Positions 45,540-56,030 of a stretch of 64,000 nt of DNA are shown here, in pieces; within the stretch, counting starts at the first letter, position 1; each line of letters opens with the position of its first letter. Below the pieces are notes generated by a model. That model saw nothing but the letters and a program-made list of their open reading frames with translations, did not search any database and was not told the DNA's origin. The translations under genes and the position numbers were made by a program. Source of the DNA: Sphingomonas hengshuiensis (GTDB taxonomy: Bacteria > Pseudomonadota > Alphaproteobacteria > Sphingomonadales > Sphingomonadaceae); assembly GCF_000935025.1 (NCBI RefSeq), contig NZ_CP010836.1, forward strand, positions 2,790,001 to 2,854,000, in the 5' to 3' direction.

Positions 45540-45697
45540 CGTTGGCTTGCAGGATTCGCCCCCGACCGTTATCCTAGCCGAGGCAGATTATTTACCAATT
45601 TCCTTAAGCATTTCCATGACTTGTGCGCAAAACACCGCCCAAGTACCCCCGTCATATGGCGCGTCCGGGGGGATGCGCGGTGCGGGGAAATTGGACG

Positions 45698-47392
45698 ATG
45701 CGCACTTCGGTGCGAGCAACGCTGTGCGCAGCGTTGCTCCTGGCTATCACGGCATGTGGCGGCGGCGGCAGCAGCGGCGGCGCATCAGGCACCGCGTCGG
45801 GCGGCGGCGTGGTATCGCCCGCGCCGACCACGCCCGTCGTGGTCGGGCTCACCGATGCCGAAGCCGCGCGGCTCGCCAAACAGGCCAGCTTCGGCCCCAC
45901 CCCGGCGCTGGTCGCCCGGATCAAGGAACTGGGGGTCGAAGGCTGGCTGAACGAGCAATTCGCCGCGACCGGCAGCACCTATGCCGACATCGCCGCCGGC
46001 GAGGTCCGCCGCGACATATGCCCCACCGGCGACACGATCTGCGCCCGCCTGCATTTCTCGCGCGCGCCGCCGGCGATGCGTTTCTACGCCGATGCGATCG
46101 GCGCACCCGACCAGCTTCGCCAGCGCGTCGCCTTCGCGCTGGGCCAGATGATCGTGGCGTCCGAGCAGGAACTGAACACTGCCGCCGGCATCGCGGCATT
46201 CAACCAGATTTTCCTCGACAACGCCTTCGGCAATTTCCGCGATGTCCTCCAGCGCGCGACGATGAGCGGCTATATGGGCAATTATCTCGACATGGCGGAC
46301 AGCAACAAGTCCGCGCCGTCGGAGAATTTCGCGCGCGAATTGCTCCAGCTCTTCTCGATGGGGCCGGACCAGCTCAACATGGACGGCACGCCGCGGCTCG
46401 ACACGACCGGCGCGCGCATTCCGAACTACACCCCCGACGACGTCCGCGGCGTGGCACGCGCGCTCACCGGCTGGACCTATGCCCGGCTGGGCGGGGCGCC
46501 GATCACCGATAGCAATGCCCGCGACTATTCGCAGCCGATGATCGTGGTGTCCGCGCGTTACGACAGCAGCGCCAAGAGCTTCCTGGGCACCAGCGTCGCC
46601 GCCGGCGCCACCCCCGAAGCCAGCGTCGCGGCGGTGATCGACGCGGCGTTCAACAATGCCTCGACCGCGCCGCGCGTCGCCCGGTTCCTGATCGCGCATC
46701 TCGTGACGCCCAACCCCAGCCCCGCCTATGTCGGGCGCGTCGCGGCGGTGTTCGCGAACAATGGCAGCGGCGTGCGCGGCGACCTGAAGGCGGTGGTCCG
46801 CACCATCCTGACCGATAGCGAGGCGCGCACCGCGCCATCGGGCGACGCGGGCAAGGTCAAGGAACCGATCCTGCTCATGACCGCACTCGCCCGCGCGATC
46901 GGCTTTTCGACCGACGGCTTTGTGTTCGTGACGCGCGACACCAGCCTGGGCCAGCCGGTGATGCGGGCGCCGTCGGTGTTCAACTTCTACCCGCCCGATT
47001 ACCCGCTGCCCGGGTCGGTGACGCTGAAGAGCCCCGCGTCGAAGCTGCTCAGCACCGCGAACCTGCTGCGCTGGCACAACCTGATCTATGACTGGACGAT
47101 CGCCGGCGATGCCACGCGGTCCGAATTCGCGCTCGATTCGGGGCTGCCGCTGTCCTCGCTCACCCAGCCCTTATGGTCGGGATGGGAGGCGTTCGGCACC
47201 GATCTGGACGCGATGGTCGCGCGAATCGACCTGTTGCTGTTCGCCAACGCGCTGAGCCCTGCGCAGCGGGCCGCACTGAAGGCCGCGGCGACGCCGATCA
47301 CCAACGCCGATCCGGTGATCCAGGCGCGCAAGCGGGCACAGATGATGCTGTATGTCGCGGCATCGAGCCCGCTGTTTCTCGTCGACCGGTAA
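45698..47392 (+). CDS. DUF1800 exported lipoprotein
   Basis: A 564-residue protein starting MRTSVRATLCAALLLAITAC, a lipoprotein signal, then a glycine-rich linker. The DUF1800 pattern is clear: AARLAKQASFGPTPALVARI, DQLRQRVAFALGQMIVAS, NFARELLQLFSMGPDQLN and the C-terminal MRAPSVFNFYPPDY. Proteins of this family are found next to DUF1501 proteins, as here 12 bp downstream. Their function is unknown; export and pairing suggest a cell-surface or periplasmic complex. GGGGA precedes the ATG. Confidence 0.9.
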   Translation: MRTSVRATLCAALLLAITACGGGGSSGGASGTASGGGVVSPAPTTPVVVGLTDAEAARLAKQASFGPTPALVARIKELGVEGWLNEQFAATGSTYADIAAGEVRRDICPTGDTICARLHFSRAPPAMRFYADAIGAPDQLRQRVAFALGQMIVASEQELNTAAGIAAFNQIFLDNAFGNFRDVLQRATMSGYMGNYLDMADSNKSAPSENFARELLQLFSMGPDQLNMDGTPRLDTTGARIPNYTPDDVRGVARALTGWTYARLGGAPITDSNARDYSQPMIVVSARYDSSAKSFLGTSVAAGATPEASVAAVIDAAFNNASTAPRVARFLIAHLVTPNPSPAYVGRVAAVFANNGSGVRGDLKAVVRTILTDSEARTAPSGDAGKVKEPILLMTALARAIGFSTDGFVFVTRDTSLGQPVMRAPSVFNFYPPDYPLPGSVTLKSPASKLLSTANLLRWHNLIYDWTIAGDATRSEFALDSGLPLSSLTQPLWSGWEAFGTDLDAMVARIDLLLFANALSPAQRAALKAAATPITNADPVIQARKRAQMMLYVAASSPLFLVDR

Positions 47393-47403
47393 GGAACCGC
47401 ACG

Positions 47404-48783
47404 ATGCCGATCTCCCGCCGCGATCTCCTCCGCCTGACCGCCGGCAGCGGGGCGATGGCCGCGCTTGGCCAGCTTGGCCGCACCACCGCGATGGCGGCGC
47501 CCAGTGGCAGCTACCGGGCGATGGTCGGAATCTTCCTGTACGGCGGCAATGACGGCTGGAACATGGTGATCCCCACCGACGCCCGGCACGCAGCCTATCT
47601 CGCCGCGCGGGGCAGCGTGGGGATAAAGGCATCGCAGCTCACGACGCTCACCGGGGCGAGCTACGCGTTGCATCCCGCAATGGCGGCGCTGCGCCCGCTT
47701 TGGGACGAGGGCAGCCTCGCGCTGGTGCTCAATGCCGGCACGCTGTTCGCGCCGCTGACCAAGGCGACCTATCAGTCGCGCCCCGATCTTCAGCCGAGCA
47801 ACCTGATGAGCCATGCCGACGAGCAGGCGCATTGGCAGGGGCTGCGCGCGCGCGACATCAGTGTCGACGGGTTCATGGGACGGATCGCCGATCGCCTGCC
47901 GAGCGGGTCGACCCCGCCGCTGATCTCGCTGGCGGGATCGACGCTGGCGACGATCGGGCGCACGAGTTCGGCGCTGGTCCTGCCCTCCACGGGGACGCTG
48001 ACGCGCACAGGCTACACCTCCGGAAGCAGCGCCGCGAACCAGGCCAAGAACGCCGCGATCGATGTGTTTGCGAATGGCGCCGGCTATGGCGCGATCGTCG
48101 AGGCGACTGCGCGCGACTCAACCGCCGCCTATGGCCAGGCAAACACGGCGAACGCCATCGTCACCGCCACCAGCGCGGTCGACAATTATTTCACCCATCC
48201 GACCACCGGCGCGCTGCTCACCAGCGACGTCGCGCGCCAGTTGATGCGCGTCGCCCGGATGATCGAGGCGCGCGGAACGCTCGGCCATGCGCGCCAGACC
48301 TTTTTCGCCAGCCAGGGCGGCTACGACACCCATTCCGGGCAGACGGGGGGCGGCAACAACGATACCGGCACCCACGCCAATCTGCTCGGCGAGCTCGCAA
48401 TGGCGATGGCGGGTTTCCATCGCGCGATGCAGTCGATCGGGATGGCGGAGAATGTCACTGCCTTCACGATGAGCGATTTCGGGCGCACCTATCGCGGCAA
48501 TGCCCAGAGCGGCACCGATCACGCCTGGGGCAGCAACCATCTGGTGGTCGGCGGCAATGTCGCGCCGGGCGGGATTTTCGGCGCCTATCCCGATCCGGTG
48601 CTGGGCGGCGCCAGCGATATTGCGAGCGATGGCCGCTTCGTCCCGGCGCTGGCGCAAGAGGAGTATATCGGCGCGATCGCGCGGTGGCATGGCGTCGCCG
48701 ACGCGGACATGCCCTATGTCCTGCCGAACTGGTCGACGTGGAGCAATGGCGGGCGCGGGCCGATAGGGTTATTCAGAGGGTAA
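47404..48783 (+). CDS. DUF1501 Tat-exported protein
   Basis: A 459-residue protein with a twin-arginine signal (MPISRRDLLRLTAGSGAMAA) and AAGGAA before the ATG. The DUF1501 fold is related to alkaline phosphatase/sulfatase: IFLYGGNDGWNMVIPTD near the N-terminus, FASQGGYDTHSGQTGG, and TMSDFGRTYRGNAQSGTDHA then WGSNHLVVGG, which carry Asp/His residues suitable for metal binding. It is encoded directly behind the DUF1800 protein, the conserved pairing of these two families. Activity is unproven; a hydrolase role is inferred from the fold. Confidence 0.9.
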   Translation: MPISRRDLLRLTAGSGAMAALGQLGRTTAMAAPSGSYRAMVGIFLYGGNDGWNMVIPTDARHAAYLAARGSVGIKASQLTTLTGASYALHPAMAALRPLWDEGSLALVLNAGTLFAPLTKATYQSRPDLQPSNLMSHADEQAHWQGLRARDISVDGFMGRIADRLPSGSTPPLISLAGSTLATIGRTSSALVLPSTGTLTRTGYTSGSSAANQAKNAAIDVFANGAGYGAIVEATARDSTAAYGQANTANAIVTATSAVDNYFTHPTTGALLTSDVARQLMRVARMIEARGTLGHARQTFFASQGGYDTHSGQTGGGNNDTGTHANLLGELAMAMAGFHRAMQSIGMAENVTAFTMSDFGRTYRGNAQSGTDHAWGSNHLVVGGNVAPGGIFGAYPDPVLGGASDIASDGRFVPALAQEEYIGAIARWHGVADADMPYVLPNWSTWSNGGRGPIGLFRG

Positions 48784-49299: not shown

Positions 49300-50193
49300 A
49301 TGCAACCCACGCTTCGCCAGCTCCGCTACCTGATCGCACTGGGCGACCATGCGAGCTTCACGCGCGGCGCTGCTGCGGTGGGCGTGTCGCAGCCTTCGTT
49401 TTCGCAACAGATCCAGCTTGTCGAGCGGCTGCTCGGCGGGCGCGTCGTCGAACGCGGCGGGGGCAAGGCGGTGCTCACCCCGCTGGGGCGCGACGCCGTC
49501 GCGGGGGCGCGGCGCGTCCTCGCCGAAGTCGCGGCGTTCGAGGCGCTCGCCGAGCGGCGCGACGACGCGCTGTCGGGGACGATCCGGCTTGGCGTCTCCC
49601 CCACGCTGGGGCCCTATATCCTGCCGCAGCTCGTCGCGCGGCTGCATTCGACCAGCCCGGACCTGCGCGTCCATGTCCGCGAGGGGCTGCCCAACATGCT
49701 CGTCGAACTGCTTGCGGACGGCACGCACGACGTGATCCTCGTCCAGCTGCCGATCGAGGACCGCGGACTGCATGTCGAGCGGCTGTTCCGTGAGCCGCTC
49801 TACGTCGCGATGGCAGCCGACGATCCGCTCGGCGCGCGCGCGATGATCGTCGAGGGCGATCTGGCGGGGCGCGGGCTGCTGACGCTCCAGCCGCAATACC
49901 GGATGAGCGATCAGGTCGCGGTGCTCGCCGAACAGGCGGGCGCACATGTCCTGCGCGACTATGAGGGCACCAGCCTCGACGCGATCCGCCAGATGGCGGG
50001 AATGGGCATGGGCCTCGCGCTGCTCCCGCACCTCTATGTCCGGCAGGAGGTGCGCGGCGGCGCCGACGTGATGGTCCGCCCCTTTGCCGGGGGACGCCAT
50101 TATCGCGAGATCGGGCTGGTGTGGCGCGCGGGCGCCGGCCGTGCCCCGGCATTCGGGACGCTCGCGGCGTTGCTGCGCGAGGTCGCGGAATAG
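49300..50193 (+). CDS. LysR-family regulator, OxyR-like but without cysteine
   Basis: A 297-residue LysR protein. The N-terminal HTH is MQPTLRQLRYLIALGDHASF, then TRGAAAVGVSQPSFSQQIQL. The effector domain resembles OxyR (SGTIRLGVSPTLGPYILPQL, LVQLPIEDRGLHVERLFREP, and MAGMGMGLALLPHLYV). At the position of OxyR's peroxidatic Cys199 (LLxLxxxHCxxDQ) it has LLTLQPQYRMSDQ, with Arg201. The protein has no Cys at all, so it cannot sense peroxide by disulfide formation. It is encoded 85 bp upstream of the degenerate ABC operon on the same strand and may regulate it. Confidence 0.85.
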   Translation: MQPTLRQLRYLIALGDHASFTRGAAAVGVSQPSFSQQIQLVERLLGGRVVERGGGKAVLTPLGRDAVAGARRVLAEVAAFEALAERRDDALSGTIRLGVSPTLGPYILPQLVARLHSTSPDLRVHVREGLPNMLVELLADGTHDVILVQLPIEDRGLHVERLFREPLYVAMAADDPLGARAMIVEGDLAGRGLLTLQPQYRMSDQVAVLAEQAGAHVLRDYEGTSLDAIRQMAGMGMGLALLPHLYVRQEVRGGADVMVRPFAGGRHYREIGLVWRAGAGRAPAFGTLAALLREVAE

Positions 50194-50278: not shown

Positions 50279-51961
50279 ATGGCTGAAACCCGCCCGGGCA
50301 TCCGGGCCTTTGCAGGTTGGATCGGATTGGTGCTGGCGCCCGACGCCGCCTTTGTGCGGCTGGCGGTGATTTATGGCGTTGCGATCTCGCTCCTGTCGCT
50401 GGCGACGCCGATCTCGGTCCAGCTGCTCATCAATTCGGTCGCGAACACCGCATTGCCGACGCCGCTGTTCACGCTGGCGGGGCTGCTGTTCCTGCTGCTG
50501 CTCCTCGCGGGGGTGCTGGCGGCGTTCCGCGTCCACCTGCTCGCGCTGTTCGAGCAGCGGCTGTTCGCGCGGATCGTCGCGGAGATCACGCTGCGCGCGG
50601 TCCATGCGCAGAACCCCTTCTTCGCCGATGCCCGCCGCGGCGACCTGTTCAATCGCTATTTCGACCTGATGACGGTGCAAAAGGCGATGCCGAGCCTGTT
50701 GCTCGGCGGTTTCACGATCGTGCTTCAGGGCGCAGTGGGGCTGGTCGTCACCAGCTTTTACCACCCGTTCTTCCTCGCGTTCAACGTGGTGCTCGTCCTC
50801 GCGCTGTTCGTCATCTGGCAGCTCTGGGCCTCGGGCGCGATCCGCACCGCCGTCGCCAAGAGCCATGCCAAGCACGCCGCCGCCCACTGGCTGGAGAGCG
50901 TCGGTGGATCGAACGGCTTCTACAAGTCGAGCCGCCATCTCGACTATGCGATGGACCGGTCGGAGGCGATCACCGCCAATTATGTCGGCGCGTACCGGCG
51001 GCATTTCCGCTACACCTTCGCGCAGACGCTGGCGCTGCTGCTCGTCTATGCGACCGCCAGCGCGGCGCTGCTCGCGCTCGGCGGCTGGCTCATCATCCAG
51101 GGGCAGCTCTCAATCGGCCAGCTCGTCGCCGCCGAACTGATCCTGTCGGGCGTCTTCTACGGCATCGCCCAGTTCGGCCCCTATCTCGAGGCGCTCTACG
51201 ATCTCGCCGCAGGGCTGGAGGAGCTGTCGCTGTTCTGGGACGTGCCGCAGGAATCGGGCAGCGCGGAGGGCGAAGGCCCCGTCGACGGCGCGATCCGCCT
51301 CCGCCGCGTCGAGCATCAGGGCCATGGTTTCGACTTCGAGGTCGCGGCGGGCGAACAGCTTGCCGTCGTCGCGGCGCCGGGCGTCGAGCGCGCGCTGACG
51401 ATGCTGCTCAAGCGGCACCAGTCGCCCGCGCGCGGCCTCGCGCTGATCGGCGGGCGCGACATTGCCGGGCTCGACATGTACCGCCTGCGCGCCGAGGTGA
51501 TGGTGCTCGACCGCCCCAGCTTCGTCGAAATGTCGATCCGCGACTATCTGTCGCTCGCCGCCTCGGGCGACGCGGCGCGGATGGTCGATGTCCTCGAAAC
51601 CGTTGGGCTGGCCGAGCGGCTGGGCGGCCTTCCCGACGGGCTCGACACGATCGTCTCGACCTCGGGATGGCCGCTGTCGGTCGGCGAGCTGATGGCGCTG
51701 AAGCTCGCCGCGGCGCTGCTCGCCCGGCCCAGGCTGCTCGTGCTCTCGCCGCTGTACGACCTGCTGCCCCCCGAGCGCGTCGATGCGGTGCTCGCGGCGC
51801 TGCGCGGCGCGACGACCGTGCTCCAGTTCACTCGCCGGCCCCAGGGGCTGGCACGCGACGGCGCGCTGTGGCTCGGCGCACGCGAACAGCGGCGCTGCGC
51901 CGACCTCGACGAACTCGTCGCCTGCGCGCGCGAAGGAGGCTCCGATGCCCTTTCAGCCTGA
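50279..51961 (+). CDS. ABC exporter-like membrane protein with a degenerate, catalytically dead nucleotide-binding domain
   Basis: A 560-residue protein; AAGGAG lies 8 bp before ATG 50279. Residues 1-305 form an ABC type I exporter membrane domain with about six spans (FVRLAVIYGVAISLLSLATP, LFTLAGLLFLLLLLAGVLAA, LLVYATASAALLALGGWLII). Residues 335-560 follow the nucleotide-binding-domain fold, but the P-loop is AAPGVERALT (no GxxGKS/T), the signature is LSVGE (LSGGQ expected), Walker B reads LLVLSPLYD (Ser490-Pro491 where Asp-Glu is expected), and the H-loop is QFTRRP (no His). It cannot hydrolyse ATP in the usual way. HlyD and TolC partners follow in overlapping frames. The frame is intact over 1.6 kb, so it is maintained, not decaying. 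Confidence 0.85.
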   Translation: MAETRPGIRAFAGWIGLVLAPDAAFVRLAVIYGVAISLLSLATPISVQLLINSVANTALPTPLFTLAGLLFLLLLLAGVLAAFRVHLLALFEQRLFARIVAEITLRAVHAQNPFFADARRGDLFNRYFDLMTVQKAMPSLLLGGFTIVLQGAVGLVVTSFYHPFFLAFNVVLVLALFVIWQLWASGAIRTAVAKSHAKHAAAHWLESVGGSNGFYKSSRHLDYAMDRSEAITANYVGAYRRHFRYTFAQTLALLLVYATASAALLALGGWLIIQGQLSIGQLVAAELILSGVFYGIAQFGPYLEALYDLAAGLEELSLFWDVPQESGSAEGEGPVDGAIRLRRVEHQGHGFDFEVAAGEQLAVVAAPGVERALTMLLKRHQSPARGLALIGGRDIAGLDMYRLRAEVMVLDRPSFVEMSIRDYLSLAASGDAARMVDVLETVGLAERLGGLPDGLDTIVSTSGWPLSVGELMALKLAAALLARPRLLVLSPLYDLLPPERVDAVLAALRGATTVLQFTRRPQGLARDGALWLGAREQRRCADLDELVACAREGGSDALSA

Positions 51962-53006
51962 ACATATCGCCCATTTCCCGACGCTCGCCAGCATCCGCCC
52001 GCCGCGTGCCACCCGCGTGCTCGCCTGGCTGATCGCCATCGGCATCGGCGTCGTTGCGGCGATCCTGTTCCTCGTCCCCTGGGTCCAGACCTCGTCCGGC
52101 GCGGGGCAGGTCACCGCGCTCGACCCCGAGGATCGCGTCCAGGACGTGACGGCGCTGGTGCCCGGCTTGGTCGAGCAATGGTATGTCCGCGACGGCGACC
52201 GGGTGCGCCGCGGCGACCCGATCGCGCGCATCGTCGACAACGACCCCAACCTGCTCGCCCGCCTCGCCGCCGAGCGTGCGCAGGTCGTGGCCGAGATCGC
52301 GGCGGCGCAACAGGCGATGGCAGTGGCCCAGATCGATGTCGGCAGATCGGGCCAGTTGCTCACCGAGGGGCTGATCGCCCGGCGCGACTATGAAGCGTCG
52401 CAGATCAAGGTCGCCGATCACCGCGCCAAGCTGGCCGAGGCGCGCGCCAAGCTCAGCCGCGTCGACGTGGCGCTCAACCGCCAGTCGGCGCAGACGGTGC
52501 GCGCGCCGCGCGACGGGCGCATCCAGTCGATCAACGCCGCTGCCGGCGCAACGCTCGTCTCGGCGGGCGATCGGCTCGCGGCGCTGGCGCCCGAGACGCC
52601 GGTGCGCGTCGTCGAGTTGATGGTCGATGGCCGCGACATCGCCATGATCCGCCCCGGGCGCCCCGTCCGGCTCGCCTTCGAAGGCTGGCCCGCGATCCAG
52701 TTCAGCGGCTGGCCTTCGATTGCACAGGGCATGTTCGACGGTCGGGTGCGCTCGGTCGATCCTTCGGCACAGCCGACGGGGCTGTTCCGCGTGCTCGTCG
52801 AGCCGATGCCGGGCAAGCCCGTCTGGCCGAACGCCGATTATGTGCGGCTGGGCGCCAAGGTGCGCGGCTGGATCCAGATGGAGACCGTCAGCGTCGGCTA
52901 TGAGCTGTGGCGCACGCTCAACGATTTCCCGCTCGAATTCCGCCGCCCGTCGATCGAGGCCGCGCCCAAGGCGTCCGCGCCTGCCCCGGCGGAGAAGGGC
53001 AAATGA
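51945..53006 (+). CDS. HlyD-family membrane-fusion (periplasmic adaptor) protein
   Basis: A 353-residue protein with GGAGG before the ATG; it overlaps the ABC gene by 17 bp. One N-terminal span (VLAWLIAIGIGVVAAILFLV) is followed by the barrel-sandwich half-motif (ALVPGLVEQWYVRDGDRVRR), an alpha-hairpin (RLAAERAQVVAEIAAAQQAM to EARAKLSRVDVALNRQS), and the second half-motif (TVRAPRDGRIQSINAAAGAT). It is short for HlyD of type I secretion and has a compact hairpin. It would bridge the inner-membrane ABC-like protein and the TolC protein encoded next. Confidence 0.92.
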   Translation: MPFQPEHIAHFPTLASIRPPRATRVLAWLIAIGIGVVAAILFLVPWVQTSSGAGQVTALDPEDRVQDVTALVPGLVEQWYVRDGDRVRRGDPIARIVDNDPNLLARLAAERAQVVAEIAAAQQAMAVAQIDVGRSGQLLTEGLIARRDYEASQIKVADHRAKLAEARAKLSRVDVALNRQSAQTVRAPRDGRIQSINAAAGATLVSAGDRLAALAPETPVRVVELMVDGRDIAMIRPGRPVRLAFEGWPAIQFSGWPSIAQGMFDGRVRSVDPSAQPTGLFRVLVEPMPGKPVWPNADYVRLGAKVRGWIQMETVSVGYELWRTLNDFPLEFRRPSIEAAPKASAPAPAEKGK

Positions 53007-54394
53007 TCCGCCTTCTCGCGCTGCTCGTCGCGCTGGTCGCGGCGGCGCCGGTCGCGGCGCAACCGCTGGCGCTCGACGAGGTCCTGCGCTCCTCGGCGAC
53101 GCACGCGCCCGCGATCCTGGAGGCGATCACCCGCGAGCGACAGGCCGATGGCCGCCGCCTGTCCGCCGAGGGGGCGTTCGACCTGTTGTTCGAAGGCGAG
53201 GCGCAGTCGCGGGCCCTCGGCTATTATGACGGCACCGTGGTCGAGGGCCGCGCGACGCGCCCGCTCGCGACCAATGGCGGCGCGCTCTATGGCGGCTACC
53301 GCGTCTCGCGCGGCGACTTCCCGACCTATGAGGACAAGGCGTTCACCAACCGGCTGGGCGAAGTGAAGGTCGGCGGGGTCTTCTCGCTGATGCGCGACCG
53401 GCTGATCGACGAGCGGCGCGGGCGGATCGGGCTGGCGGGGGGCGATACCGTGCTCGCCCGGCTCGACCGCGAAATGGTCGCGATCGGCGTCCAGCGGCGC
53501 GCGATCGACGCGTATCAGGCATGGGTAGCCGCCGGGGTGCGGACCAGCGTCTATCGCGACCTCCTCTCGCTCGCCACGGCGCGCCAGGCGTCGATCGAGC
53601 GCCAGATCGCGCTCGGTGCCCGCCCGCAGATCCTGGGCATCGAGAACCGCCAGAACATCCTCCGTCGCCAGACCTTGCTGGTGCGCGCCGAGCAGGAGCT
53701 GGCGGCGGCGGCCAACGCACTCTCCTTCTACCTTCGCGATGCCGAGGGCGAGCGCGTCGTCCCGTCTGCGGACCGCCTGCCCCCTGCCTTTCCAACGCTG
53801 CGCCTGCCCGCGCTCGGCCCCGACCTCGCGCGCCGGATCGAACGCCCCGATCTGGCGGCGATCCTCGTCCGGCTCGATCAGGTCGAAGTGAAGCGCCTGC
53901 TCGCCGAGAACGAGATGCGCCCGCGGCTCGACGTCCGCGCCGAGCTTGCCAAGGACGTCGGCGATGTCGGGCTGGGCGGCGCATCGCGGACGCCGGCAGA
54001 GGGGATAGTCGGCCTGCGCTTCTCGCTGCCGCTCGAACGCCGCCAGGCGCGCGGCAAGATTGCCGAAGCGGCGGCGGAGGCGGATGGGCTAAGGCTGCGG
54101 CGCAGGCTGATCGAGGACCAGATCCTCGTCGAGGTGAACGGCCTCGCGATCCAGGCGACGGCGGCCGACCAGCTGGTGGCGCTCGCCGCGGACGAGACGG
54201 CGCTGGCGGATCGCATGGCCGAGGCCGAACGCCGCCGGTTCCAGCTGGGCGCGAGCGACTTCATCGTCGTCAACCTGCGCGAGGAAAGCGCCGCCGATGC
54301 GCGCCTGCGCCAGATCGACGCCGAGTATCGCCGCGCGTCTGCCCGCGCCGAATTGGTGGCGGCGACCGTCGACCGCGGGCAACTCGGCCTGTAA
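53003..54394 (+). CDS. TolC-family outer-membrane efflux protein
   Basis: A 463-residue protein coupled to the HlyD gene by ATGA. The signal peptide is MIRLLALLVALVAAAPVAAQ. The mature protein has the long helical repeats of TolC (DTVLARLDREMVAIGVQRRA, EQELAAAANALSFYLRDAEG, VNGLAIQATAADQLVALAAD) and two short beta regions. The central segment (FSLMRDRLIDERRGRIG) is typical of TolC proteins paired with HlyD-type adaptors. It completes an inner-membrane, periplasmic and outer-membrane chain whose energy source is unclear, because the ABC partner lacks ATPase motifs. Confidence 0.9.
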   Translation: MIRLLALLVALVAAAPVAAQPLALDEVLRSSATHAPAILEAITRERQADGRRLSAEGAFDLLFEGEAQSRALGYYDGTVVEGRATRPLATNGGALYGGYRVSRGDFPTYEDKAFTNRLGEVKVGGVFSLMRDRLIDERRGRIGLAGGDTVLARLDREMVAIGVQRRAIDAYQAWVAAGVRTSVYRDLLSLATARQASIERQIALGARPQILGIENRQNILRRQTLLVRAEQELAAAANALSFYLRDAEGERVVPSADRLPPAFPTLRLPALGPDLARRIERPDLAAILVRLDQVEVKRLLAENEMRPRLDVRAELAKDVGDVGLGGASRTPAEGIVGLRFSLPLERRQARGKIAEAAAEADGLRLRRRLIEDQILVEVNGLAIQATAADQLVALAADETALADRMAEAERRRFQLGASDFIVVNLREESAADARLRQIDAEYRRASARAELVAATVDRGQLGL

Positions 54395-54401
54395 GCGCGC
54401 G

Positions 54402-55148
54402 CTAAAGCGCCACGTCAGGCTCGCCCATGAAGCGCGCGATGGTTTGGAACGTCGCGCCGTCGATCCGGATTTCGTTGAACGAAGGCGGCTGGCTGCGGAC
54501 GCGTTCGGACAGCGTGCCCGCGCCGATCAGCCGCACCGTCCTGCCGCCCACGTCGTGCGCGATGTCGAACGGATCGTGGACATGGCCCGTCAGCACCGCA
54601 TGCGCCCCCGCCGTCGCCAGCGCCGCCAGCGCCTCGCGCCCGCGCCGCGTCCGCGAACTGGCCTGCGTTCCCGCCTCGATCAGCGGATGGTGCGCGGCGA
54701 CGAACACCAGGTCGCCTTTCGGCACCGCCTCGACCAGCGCCAGCGACTTGCGCAGCGCGCGGATGCTGACATTGCCCTTCGACCAGTTGAGCCGGAACTG
54801 GGCGCGCGCCGTGGTCTTCAGCGGCACCACGCCGACACCCTTGAGGTCGAGCGGCTTCTCGATCATCCGCTCGATCGTCTTGTACCGGCGGTAGGGCGCC
54901 ACCAGCCGCGCCAGCGGATTGAAATAGGGCAGGTCGTGGTTGCCGACCTCGACCGTCACCGGGCGCCCGAGGCTTTCCAGCCACTTGCCCGCCGCCGCGA
55001 ACTCGCTGGCGCGCGCGCGCATCGTCAGGTCGCCGGTCATCACGATCGCATCGGGCTGTTCCTCCGCGACCCGGCGCCCGAACCATTCGATCGCGGCAAC
55101 ATCCTCGCGCCCGAAATGCACGTCGCTGACATGGAACAGCCGAGTCAC
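54402..55148 (-). CDS. Calcineurin-like metallophosphoesterase
   Basis: A 248-residue enzyme with all metal motifs of the family: DVHFGR near the N-terminus, MTGDLTMRARASEF, GNHDLPYFNP, AAHHPLIEAG and LTGHVHDPFD. It is convergent with the TolC gene and shares a 4-bp overlap (ATGA) with the upstream lipid-kinase gene, so both are co-translated. Such phosphoesterases act on nucleotides, cyclic nucleotides or lipid A intermediates. The pairing with a diacylglycerol kinase-like enzyme suggests a phospholipid-related substrate. Confidence 0.92.
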   Translation of the reverse strand: MTRLFHVSDVHFGREDVAAIEWFGRRVAEEQPDAIVMTGDLTMRARASEFAAAGKWLESLGRPVTVEVGNHDLPYFNPLARLVAPYRRYKTIERMIEKPLDLKGVGVVPLKTTARAQFRLNWSKGNVSIRALRKSLALVEAVPKGDLVFVAAHHPLIEAGTQASSRTRRGREALAALATAGAHAVLTGHVHDPFDIAHDVGGRTVRLIGAGTLSERVRSQPPSFNEIRIDGATFQTIARFMGEPDVAL

Positions 55149-55984
55149 GTCGCCGCCTCCTCACGGGTCTTGATGAAGGTCTCCAGGCTCTTGCCCGCCC
55201 GGATCGCGACGCGCGGCGGCAACGTCACCGGCTCGCCGTCGAACAGCGCCGTCGAGGGACGCTTGCCGCGCACCCGCAGCGTCTCGGTGCGCGTCTCGCT
55301 AACGGCGCGCGCGGCGATCCAGTCGCCGGTCACCCATTCCCAGCCAAGCTGGACGATCGATCCCCAATCGCGCGCATCGACCGCGGCGACGTGCAGGCTG
55401 TCCAGATCGGGGGTGACGAACACCGCCTGATACTGGTCGCGTAAGCCAGGCGCGCCGTCCAGCCGGATGCCGCTCCGGCCAAAGGTCTTGCGCCATGCCG
55501 CCCGCGCCGCGCCGATCAGCCGGCTCACCCGCCCCTTGCGTGCGGCCTCGCGCGCCCGCGCCCAGGCGGCAGCGGGTCCAAGGATCAGCCCGACGAACGC
55601 GCGGTGCTCCCCCGCCTCGACGAAGGGCAGCGCGACGCGGCGGTCGCATGCGCGCGCGGCATGGACGATCCTGTGCGGGTCGGTCTCGCTGTGGAGCCCC
55701 TTGGCCAGCAGGTTCATCGTGCCCCCGGGCAGGATCAGGAACGCCCCGTCCCACTCGGCCAGCGCCGACAGCGCGGCGTTGATCGTCCCGTCGCCGCCGA
55801 ACAGCACGACGGTGTCGACCTTCGCTGCGTCCAGCTCGGCGCCGGTCGGCAGGTCATGCGCGGGAAATTCGGTTCGCCCGGCAAGCTCGAGCCCGCTCTC
55901 GGAAAACACCGCCTCCAAAGCCTCGCATTTGGGGCGGGAGGTCGTTCCCGAATTGGGGTTGGTGATGAACCACAGGTTTTGCAT
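55145..55984 (-). CDS. Diacylglycerol kinase-family lipid kinase
   Basis: A 279-residue protein. The start is MQNLWFITNPNSGTTSRPKC; a TTG eight codons upstream is possible. The ATP-binding motif is VVLFGGDGTINAALSALAEW, followed by LPGGTMNLLAKGLHSETDPH, both typical of DgkB/YegS lipid kinases. The C-terminal beta-sandwich (FDGEPVTLPPRVAIRAGKSL) is also present. It would phosphorylate diacylglycerol, sphingosine or a related lipid in the inner leaflet; in a sphingolipid-bearing sphingomonad a sphingoid base is a reasonable candidate. Coupled to the phosphoesterase. Confidence 0.92.
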   Translation of the reverse strand: MQNLWFITNPNSGTTSRPKCEALEAVFSESGLELAGRTEFPAHDLPTGAELDAAKVDTVVLFGGDGTINAALSALAEWDGAFLILPGGTMNLLAKGLHSETDPHRIVHAARACDRRVALPFVEAGEHRAFVGLILGPAAAWARAREAARKGRVSRLIGAARAAWRKTFGRSGIRLDGAPGLRDQYQAVFVTPDLDSLHVAAVDARDWGSIVQLGWEWVTGDWIAARAVSETRTETLRVRGKRPSTALFDGEPVTLPPRVAIRAGKSLETFIKTREEAAT

Positions 55985-56030
55985 GGAGCGGCAACGCGCC
56001 AGTCGCAAATTGGTGGCCGGGGCGTAACGA

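Follow-up and report, generated by a model that had tools for sequence, protein, structure and literature searches.

Heterodimeric ABC exporters in which one site is degenerate are a familiar type, and this site still binds ATP according to the excerpted text of a review (PMC7756269). In LmrA of Lactococcus lactis, the helix-6 residue Glu314 (E314)—located 74 residues before K388—is described as required for proton-coupled transport; a form devoid of the NBD still transports, and nucleotide binding still matters (excerpts of PMC6155054 and PMC2704374). SbmA, as described, is driven by protons and has a membrane domain of the ABC type as well as a glutamate ladder, with neither NBDs nor coupling helices (excerpts of PMC13316013). 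An operon of Blastomonas fulva, 'HlyBD2-OMP2', has been filed as an ABC-type efflux pump, in a text whose sole 'Walker' is the name of an author (PMC9505733). Among the open-licence papers retrieved, no title or abstract opening describes a three-part exporter whose ABC subunit is fully degenerate, which does not prove that no such description exists.

The operon described here lies in a window of 64,000 nucleotides from Sphingomonas hengshuiensis, the whole stretch of DNA that was analyzed (Table 1). An earlier note on this DNA had reported three intact, overlapping frames, and coordinates, frames, and overlaps were all confirmed: the ABC gene overlaps the adaptor gene by 17 bp, the adaptor gene overlaps the channel gene by 4 bp, and the frames between 50279 and 54394 contain no internal stops. 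At the gene level, the locus has the make-up of a candidate tripartite exporter, with an inner-membrane protein, an adaptor, and an outer-membrane channel in conserved order. The 560-aa ABC protein matches the Pfam model ABC_membrane at 40.2 bits (cut-off 28), and its match to ABC_tran reaches 22.3 bits, below the cut-off of 25. Since precomputed ABC_tran matches are present in some of its relatives, the pseudo-NBD is still recognizable as an NBD. Its structural model (pLDDT 90.6) predicts an ordinary exporter fold, in which an NBD fold follows a membrane domain of six helices, as in type IV ABC exporters. HlyB (8dck) is the best Foldseek match of the model (TM 0.86 on query), and VIA-align places TmrAB and HlyB level. 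HlyB is also the best NCBIfam match, at 111.5 bits against a cut-off of 725.55, so that the protein does not count as a HlyB-type T1SS ABC protein.

Table 1. Features of the operon and its upstream neighbor (positions within the window)
Feature	Position	Strand	Basis or remark
LysR-type regulator	49300..50193	+	nearest NCBIfam model OxyR, 171 bits vs cut-off 329; just upstream of the operon
Pseudo-ABC exporter subunit, 560 aa	50279..51961	+	membrane domain residues 1-322, pseudo-NBD 323-560; predicted fold and Pfam
Glu286, first part of transmembrane helix 6	51134..51136	+	Glu in 412/412 family sequences; position by predicted secondary structure
Asp308	51200..51202	+	acidic in 389/412 family sequences; Gln in 20/24 ordinary proteins
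Degenerate Walker A region VAAPGVERALT, E370 in the Lys column	51368..51403	+	alignment
Degenerate signature LSVGE for LSGGQ	51674..51688	+	alignment
Degenerate Walker B and D-loop: S490-P491 for Asp-Glu, D494 for D-loop Ser	51746..51760	+	alignment
Arg519 in the switch-His column	51833..51835	+	alignment
HlyD-type periplasmic adaptor, 353 aa	51945..53006	+	HlyD_3 and HlyD_D23 (Pfam); C-terminal GYExWRxLNxFP
TolC-type outer-membrane channel, 463 aa	53003..54394	+	OEP (Pfam)

Of the residues that mark an active ABC exporter—Walker A Lys, Walker B Asp-Glu, Q-loop Gln, and H-loop His—the protein encoded in the window has none. Alignment to ordinary ABC proteins bears out every alteration that the earlier note had listed, in the P-loop, the Q-loop region, the signature, Walker B, and the H-loop; the column of the Q-loop Gln holds an Asp. 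Absent from that list was the A-loop hairpin, which is shortened to 17 residues compared with a median of 25 in ordinary ABC proteins. Judged by sequence, the loss of the catalytic motifs is solid, and the description of the protein as a pseudo-ATPase stands.

A protein search returned 1667 relatives of the ABC protein at E <= 1e-10. The best 120 of these are 64–100% identical to it, those with names belong mostly to Sphingomonas and Novosphingobium, and the alignment of the 120 revealed a P-loop in none. Family tallies comprise the fetched loci and the 360 proteins listed by three such searches (best 120 of 1667, best 120 of 748, and best 120 of 772 matches), with the exclusion of the two parts of one broken copy (L032 and L033), a partial sequence (L041), and the window itself under another number (L001). 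In all, 412 family sequences—167 alpha-type, 124 gamma-type, and 121 beta-type—were aligned with 24 ordinary ABC proteins, which include L006, a MacB-like ATPase without a family-type membrane domain; three gamma rows (P0288, P0289, and P0298) are incomplete, hence some denominators are 409 rather than 412.

Samples of the class (289 genomes), the taxonomic family (249), and the phylum (398) were also searched with the ABC protein. Matches occurred in 27 of the 249 genomes of the taxonomic family, the genome of the window counted, and the phylum sample added matches from a second family of the order (48% identity), from four genomes of one distant family (40%), and from one more genome (32%). 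Two further protein searches, by the best 120 matches of each, link the four genomes at 40% to Paraglaciecola, Alteromonas, and Microbulbifer, and the genome at 32% to Methylobacillus, with Methylotenera and Nitrosomonas more distant; class names given for these genomes are taken from the names of the nearest protein matches. Among the matches listed, those with a name come chiefly from Sphingomonadales, Alteromonas-type Gammaproteobacteria, and Methylobacillus/Nitrosomonas-type Betaproteobacteria. Many are named ABC transporter ATP-binding proteins in public records.

The gene order is a stable trait of the family. At 49 loci with an ABC match above 45% identity—a count that includes the window itself and one broken copy counted as two—the adaptor is always present and the channel is present in 47; the other two loci break off within about 0.5 kb past the adaptor. 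Six distant loci (L081–L086) preserve the ABC-HlyD-TolC order as well, the third gene of L085 being an OEP match. The C-terminal adaptor motif GYExWRxLNxFP occurs in 49 of 56 family adaptors versus none of 13 adaptors adjoining ordinary exporters. The betaproteobacterial adaptor of L085 (7057–8364) is about 80 residues longer than that of the window, with insertions between the lipoyl halves. In a tree with 23 ordinary rows, L006 being left out, the family falls on one side of a branch with support 98/98; four outgroup rows form very long branches, and the branching order of the alpha, gamma, and beta types is not resolved.

Not one of the 412 family sequences combines the Walker A Lys, the Walker B Asp and Glu, the Q-loop Gln, and the H-loop His, whereas all 24 ordinary proteins do, which sets chance aside as an explanation. 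Orthologues without catalytic motifs, for which the earlier note had proposed a genome search, were found, and their degeneracy is graded. The P-loop Lys is missing from the alpha and gamma branches, where a single Lys stands in the Walker A column (L024), outside any P-loop. The beta branch retains the Walker A Lys in 121 of 121 sequences. The Walker B Asp-Glu pair survives in 1 of the 412, the beta member P0238, which has lost the Q-loop Gln and the switch His. Elsewhere the gamma branch nearly always has Asn-Gln at these two positions, and the alpha branch mostly has Ser-Pro. The Q-loop Gln is missing from all 412 sequences, and the beta branch has neither this Gln nor the switch His in any of its 121 members. 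A His in the switch-His column was seen in seven gamma sequences, each without the Walker A Lys. The A-loop hairpin, measured as median number of residues between the first two strands, shortens from 25 in ordinary proteins to 24 in beta, 21 in gamma, and 17 in alpha, the branch of the window, where it is lost in addition to Walker A; an aromatic A-loop residue (Tyr or Phe) is found in 113 of 121 beta sequences. This distribution suggests that the family ancestor had probably already lost its catalytic activity or retained it in weakened form, and that the nucleotide site was taken apart afterwards in the alpha and gamma lines.

Five beta sequences (P0147–P0150 and P0186) carry the Walker B Glu with Asn in place of Asp and are devoid of the Q-loop Gln and the switch His. 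Together with P0238, they make up the 6 of 121 beta members in which the catalytic Glu is kept, and they may represent either separate routes of loss or leftover activity.

Across 28 pairs drawn from 8 sequences, mean pN/pS is 0.15 in the membrane domain, the part of the ABC protein that varies least, and 0.22 in the pseudo-NBD. Both values indicate purifying selection, and the earlier proposal that the operon is under selection holds in this respect. Glu286 is invariant in the family, whereas the same column contains Glu in 0 of 24 ordinary proteins and Asn in 19 of them; one ordinary Asp in this column is a chance alignment of L006. Asp308 is placed lower in helix 6. Lys198 (412 of 412) and Lys135 (410 of 412) are likewise typical of the family, and in the pseudo-NBD Pro465 and Asp494 are invariant (409 of 409 each) and absent from the 24 ordinary proteins. 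In seven ordinary proteins the Asp308 column precedes the Walker A Lys by 71–78 residues. By residue spacing only, Asp308 therefore corresponds to Glu314 of LmrA, while Glu286 occupies another position. The conservation of Glu286 can also be accounted for by a structural role.

The earlier note had left the choice between an unknown energy source and an unlinked active half. Of the two, an energy source other than ATP remains the likelier, and it can be specified further as an ion gradient. As a tentative reading, the likeliest of those considered although at less than even odds, and drawn from sequence and from analogy with SbmA, the subunit may be a homodimeric ABC-fold exporter that operates without ATP hydrolysis and is driven by such a gradient. 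The operon would then constitute a trans-envelope exporter whose inner-membrane subunit, presumably a homodimer, combines a type IV ABC-exporter fold with non-catalytic NBDs. In the family ancestor, an ion gradient acting on the helix-6 carboxylates—Glu286 first and Asp308 second—would have replaced ATP hydrolysis. The pseudo-NBDs would have been retained for a structural role, clamping the two halves together, and adaptor and channel would carry the substrate outward.

The neighborhood offers few hints as to the substrate. Clustering of the flanking frames of 34 loci recovered the operon, shadow frames, the LysR gene, and otherwise only frames common to at most seven loci; no conserved cargo or partner gene was recognized among them. 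Homologues of the LysR gene lie close to the ABC gene at 21 of the 34 loci. The LysR-type protein of the window is a possible regulator of the operon. Given the lack of a conserved nearby cargo gene and the LysR neighbor, a small stress-related cargo is likelier than a dedicated protein. Another LysR-type gene lies divergently upstream in three of four gamma loci (L081, 6526–7452; L083, 9915–10808; L084, 7159–8061; not L082), so that two different LysR-type regulators flank the operon by class, an OxyR-like one in Alphaproteobacteria and another in Gammaproteobacteria; by eye, we take the latter to resemble NhaR. Upstream of the operon in the window, two frames in succession (589 and 536 aa; 45623–48783) presumably form a DUF1800/DUF1501 pair. 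On the minus strand, a calcineurin-like phosphoesterase gene (54402–56008) has a 4-bp overlap with its upstream gene, presumably a lipid kinase gene, and both are convergent to the operon.

The ion-gradient reading competes with several others. One that is somewhat unlikely, yet fares best among them, posits a subunit that performs no active transport and serves as gated channel, scaffold, or regulator of the adaptor–channel pair, the substrate moving down its own gradient. The alpha and gamma branches, which have no intact nucleotide site, agree with such a role, and the energy source is itself only a proposal. However, the membrane domain with its pN/pS of 0.15 is the best conserved part of the protein, and a scaffold would hardly need the family-specific charges E286, K135, and K198.

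Pairing of the pseudo-ABC protein with an unlinked, catalytically active ABC half, in a heterodimer that hydrolyzes ATP, appears unlikely, well known as heterodimers with one degenerate site are (PMC7756269). The degenerate sites in the excerpted part of that review bind ATP, whereas Walker A is gone from the alpha and gamma branches, and the A-loop from the alpha branch as well. Four other ABC_membrane proteins (L002–L005) are encoded in the genome of the window; at E <= 1e-80, among 34 family-bearing genomes with the own genome counted, L002 and L003 were matched in 34 each, L004 in 1, and L005 in 8. L004 and L005 are thereby excluded as obligate partners. L002 and L003 are widely kept, but both are MsbA-like (best models MsbA-type, scores under cut-off), likely housekeeping, and reach only 30–47% identity in the gamma and beta genomes. 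A second exporter-type ABC gene conserved next to the operon was found neither in the 34 flanked loci nor in the distant loci. The unlinked half, the earlier note's alternative, is weakened accordingly.

It is distinctly improbable that the pseudo-NBD still binds or slowly hydrolyzes nucleotide at a non-canonical site. The beta branch, with Walker A throughout, a Tyr or Phe in the A-loop of most members, and a Walker B Glu in six (one with Asp), speaks for such an activity, but the branch of the window is devoid of the Walker A Lys, the Walker B Asp/Glu, the Q-loop Gln, the switch His, and the A-loop hairpin. ATP binding could have a role in the beta branch, where Walker A is kept.

An orthologue with intact Walker A and B in the same gene order, which by the earlier note would have marked this copy as a decayed exception, was not found in the class (289), family (249), and phylum (398) samples, nor in searches with a beta member (398 genomes) or an adaptor profile (374 genomes). 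The adaptor profile gave 10 matches at E <= 1e-30, all of which adjoin an already-found degenerate ABC gene. Besides family members, the beta member retrieved three longer exporters (open frames of 722–735 aa, 23–26% identity). Their Walker A, Walker B, and switch His look intact, and they have no helix-6 Glu. As the genome samples overlap and come from larger groups, there may be rare relatives with intact motifs. Loss does happen: among the 27 genomes of the family sample that gave a match, one (G323) has its ABC gene broken into two frames. That the window gene is an active exporter gene in decay can nonetheless be dismissed, because orthologues from three classes are degenerate alike, pN/pS lies far below 1 in both domains, and the other matches in the class, family, and phylum samples have no stops. 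In G323 the adaptor frame adjoining the two pieces (L032, L033) is open.

Returning to the ion-gradient reading, a bolder form of it is slightly less probable: widespread proteobacterial tripartite exporters might each contain an ABC protein turned secondary-active pump, in which dead NBDs act as clamps, ion-motive force on the invariant helix-6 Glu drives export through HlyD and TolC, and the beta branch represents an intermediate. If the family members do not use ATP, the wrong energy source has been assumed for a class of envelope exporters. The family constitutes a natural series, from full ATPases in ordinary relatives through a Walker A nearly without catalysis in Betaproteobacteria to no nucleotide site in the others, and it makes testable whether an ABC membrane domain with NBDs attached can run on an ion gradient.

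Several described systems share individual features with the operon. HlyB-HlyD-TolC type I secretion has the same three-part architecture and gene order, but the window operon features neither a C39-like domain nor functional NBD motifs, and no linked cargo gene was found. The genes of 'HlyBD2-OMP2' of the sphingomonad Blastomonas fulva (1659, 1053, and 1503 bp; PMC9505733) are of similar size and stand in the same order, and by gene sizes and order this operon probably belongs to the same family. TM287/288, TmrAB, and BmrCD have a similar fold and have lost catalytic NBD residues in one half. They pair with an active half, whereas the window operon has no linked partner and the alpha and gamma branches also lack Walker A. 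LmrA is, like the window protein, an ABC exporter with a helix-6 carboxylate, but it has active NBDs and works with neither adaptor nor channel. The SbmA-like peptide transporters (SLiPT) have, in their excerpted description, an ABC-type membrane domain without ATP hydrolysis and conserved membrane glutamates, features that the family appears to share. SbmA is an importer without an NBD, whereas the window operon retains a dead NBD, an adaptor, and an outer-membrane channel; transporters of the SbmA type have lost NBDs and coupling helices, while the family keeps the NBD fold and, by predicted secondary structure, the coupling-helix loops, which hints that the NBDs still do something. SbmA and LmrA serve as precedents for ion coupling in the family rather than as proof. 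With an NBD fold predicted, the window protein falls outside the SbmA-like group and may resemble SbmA in its working mode.
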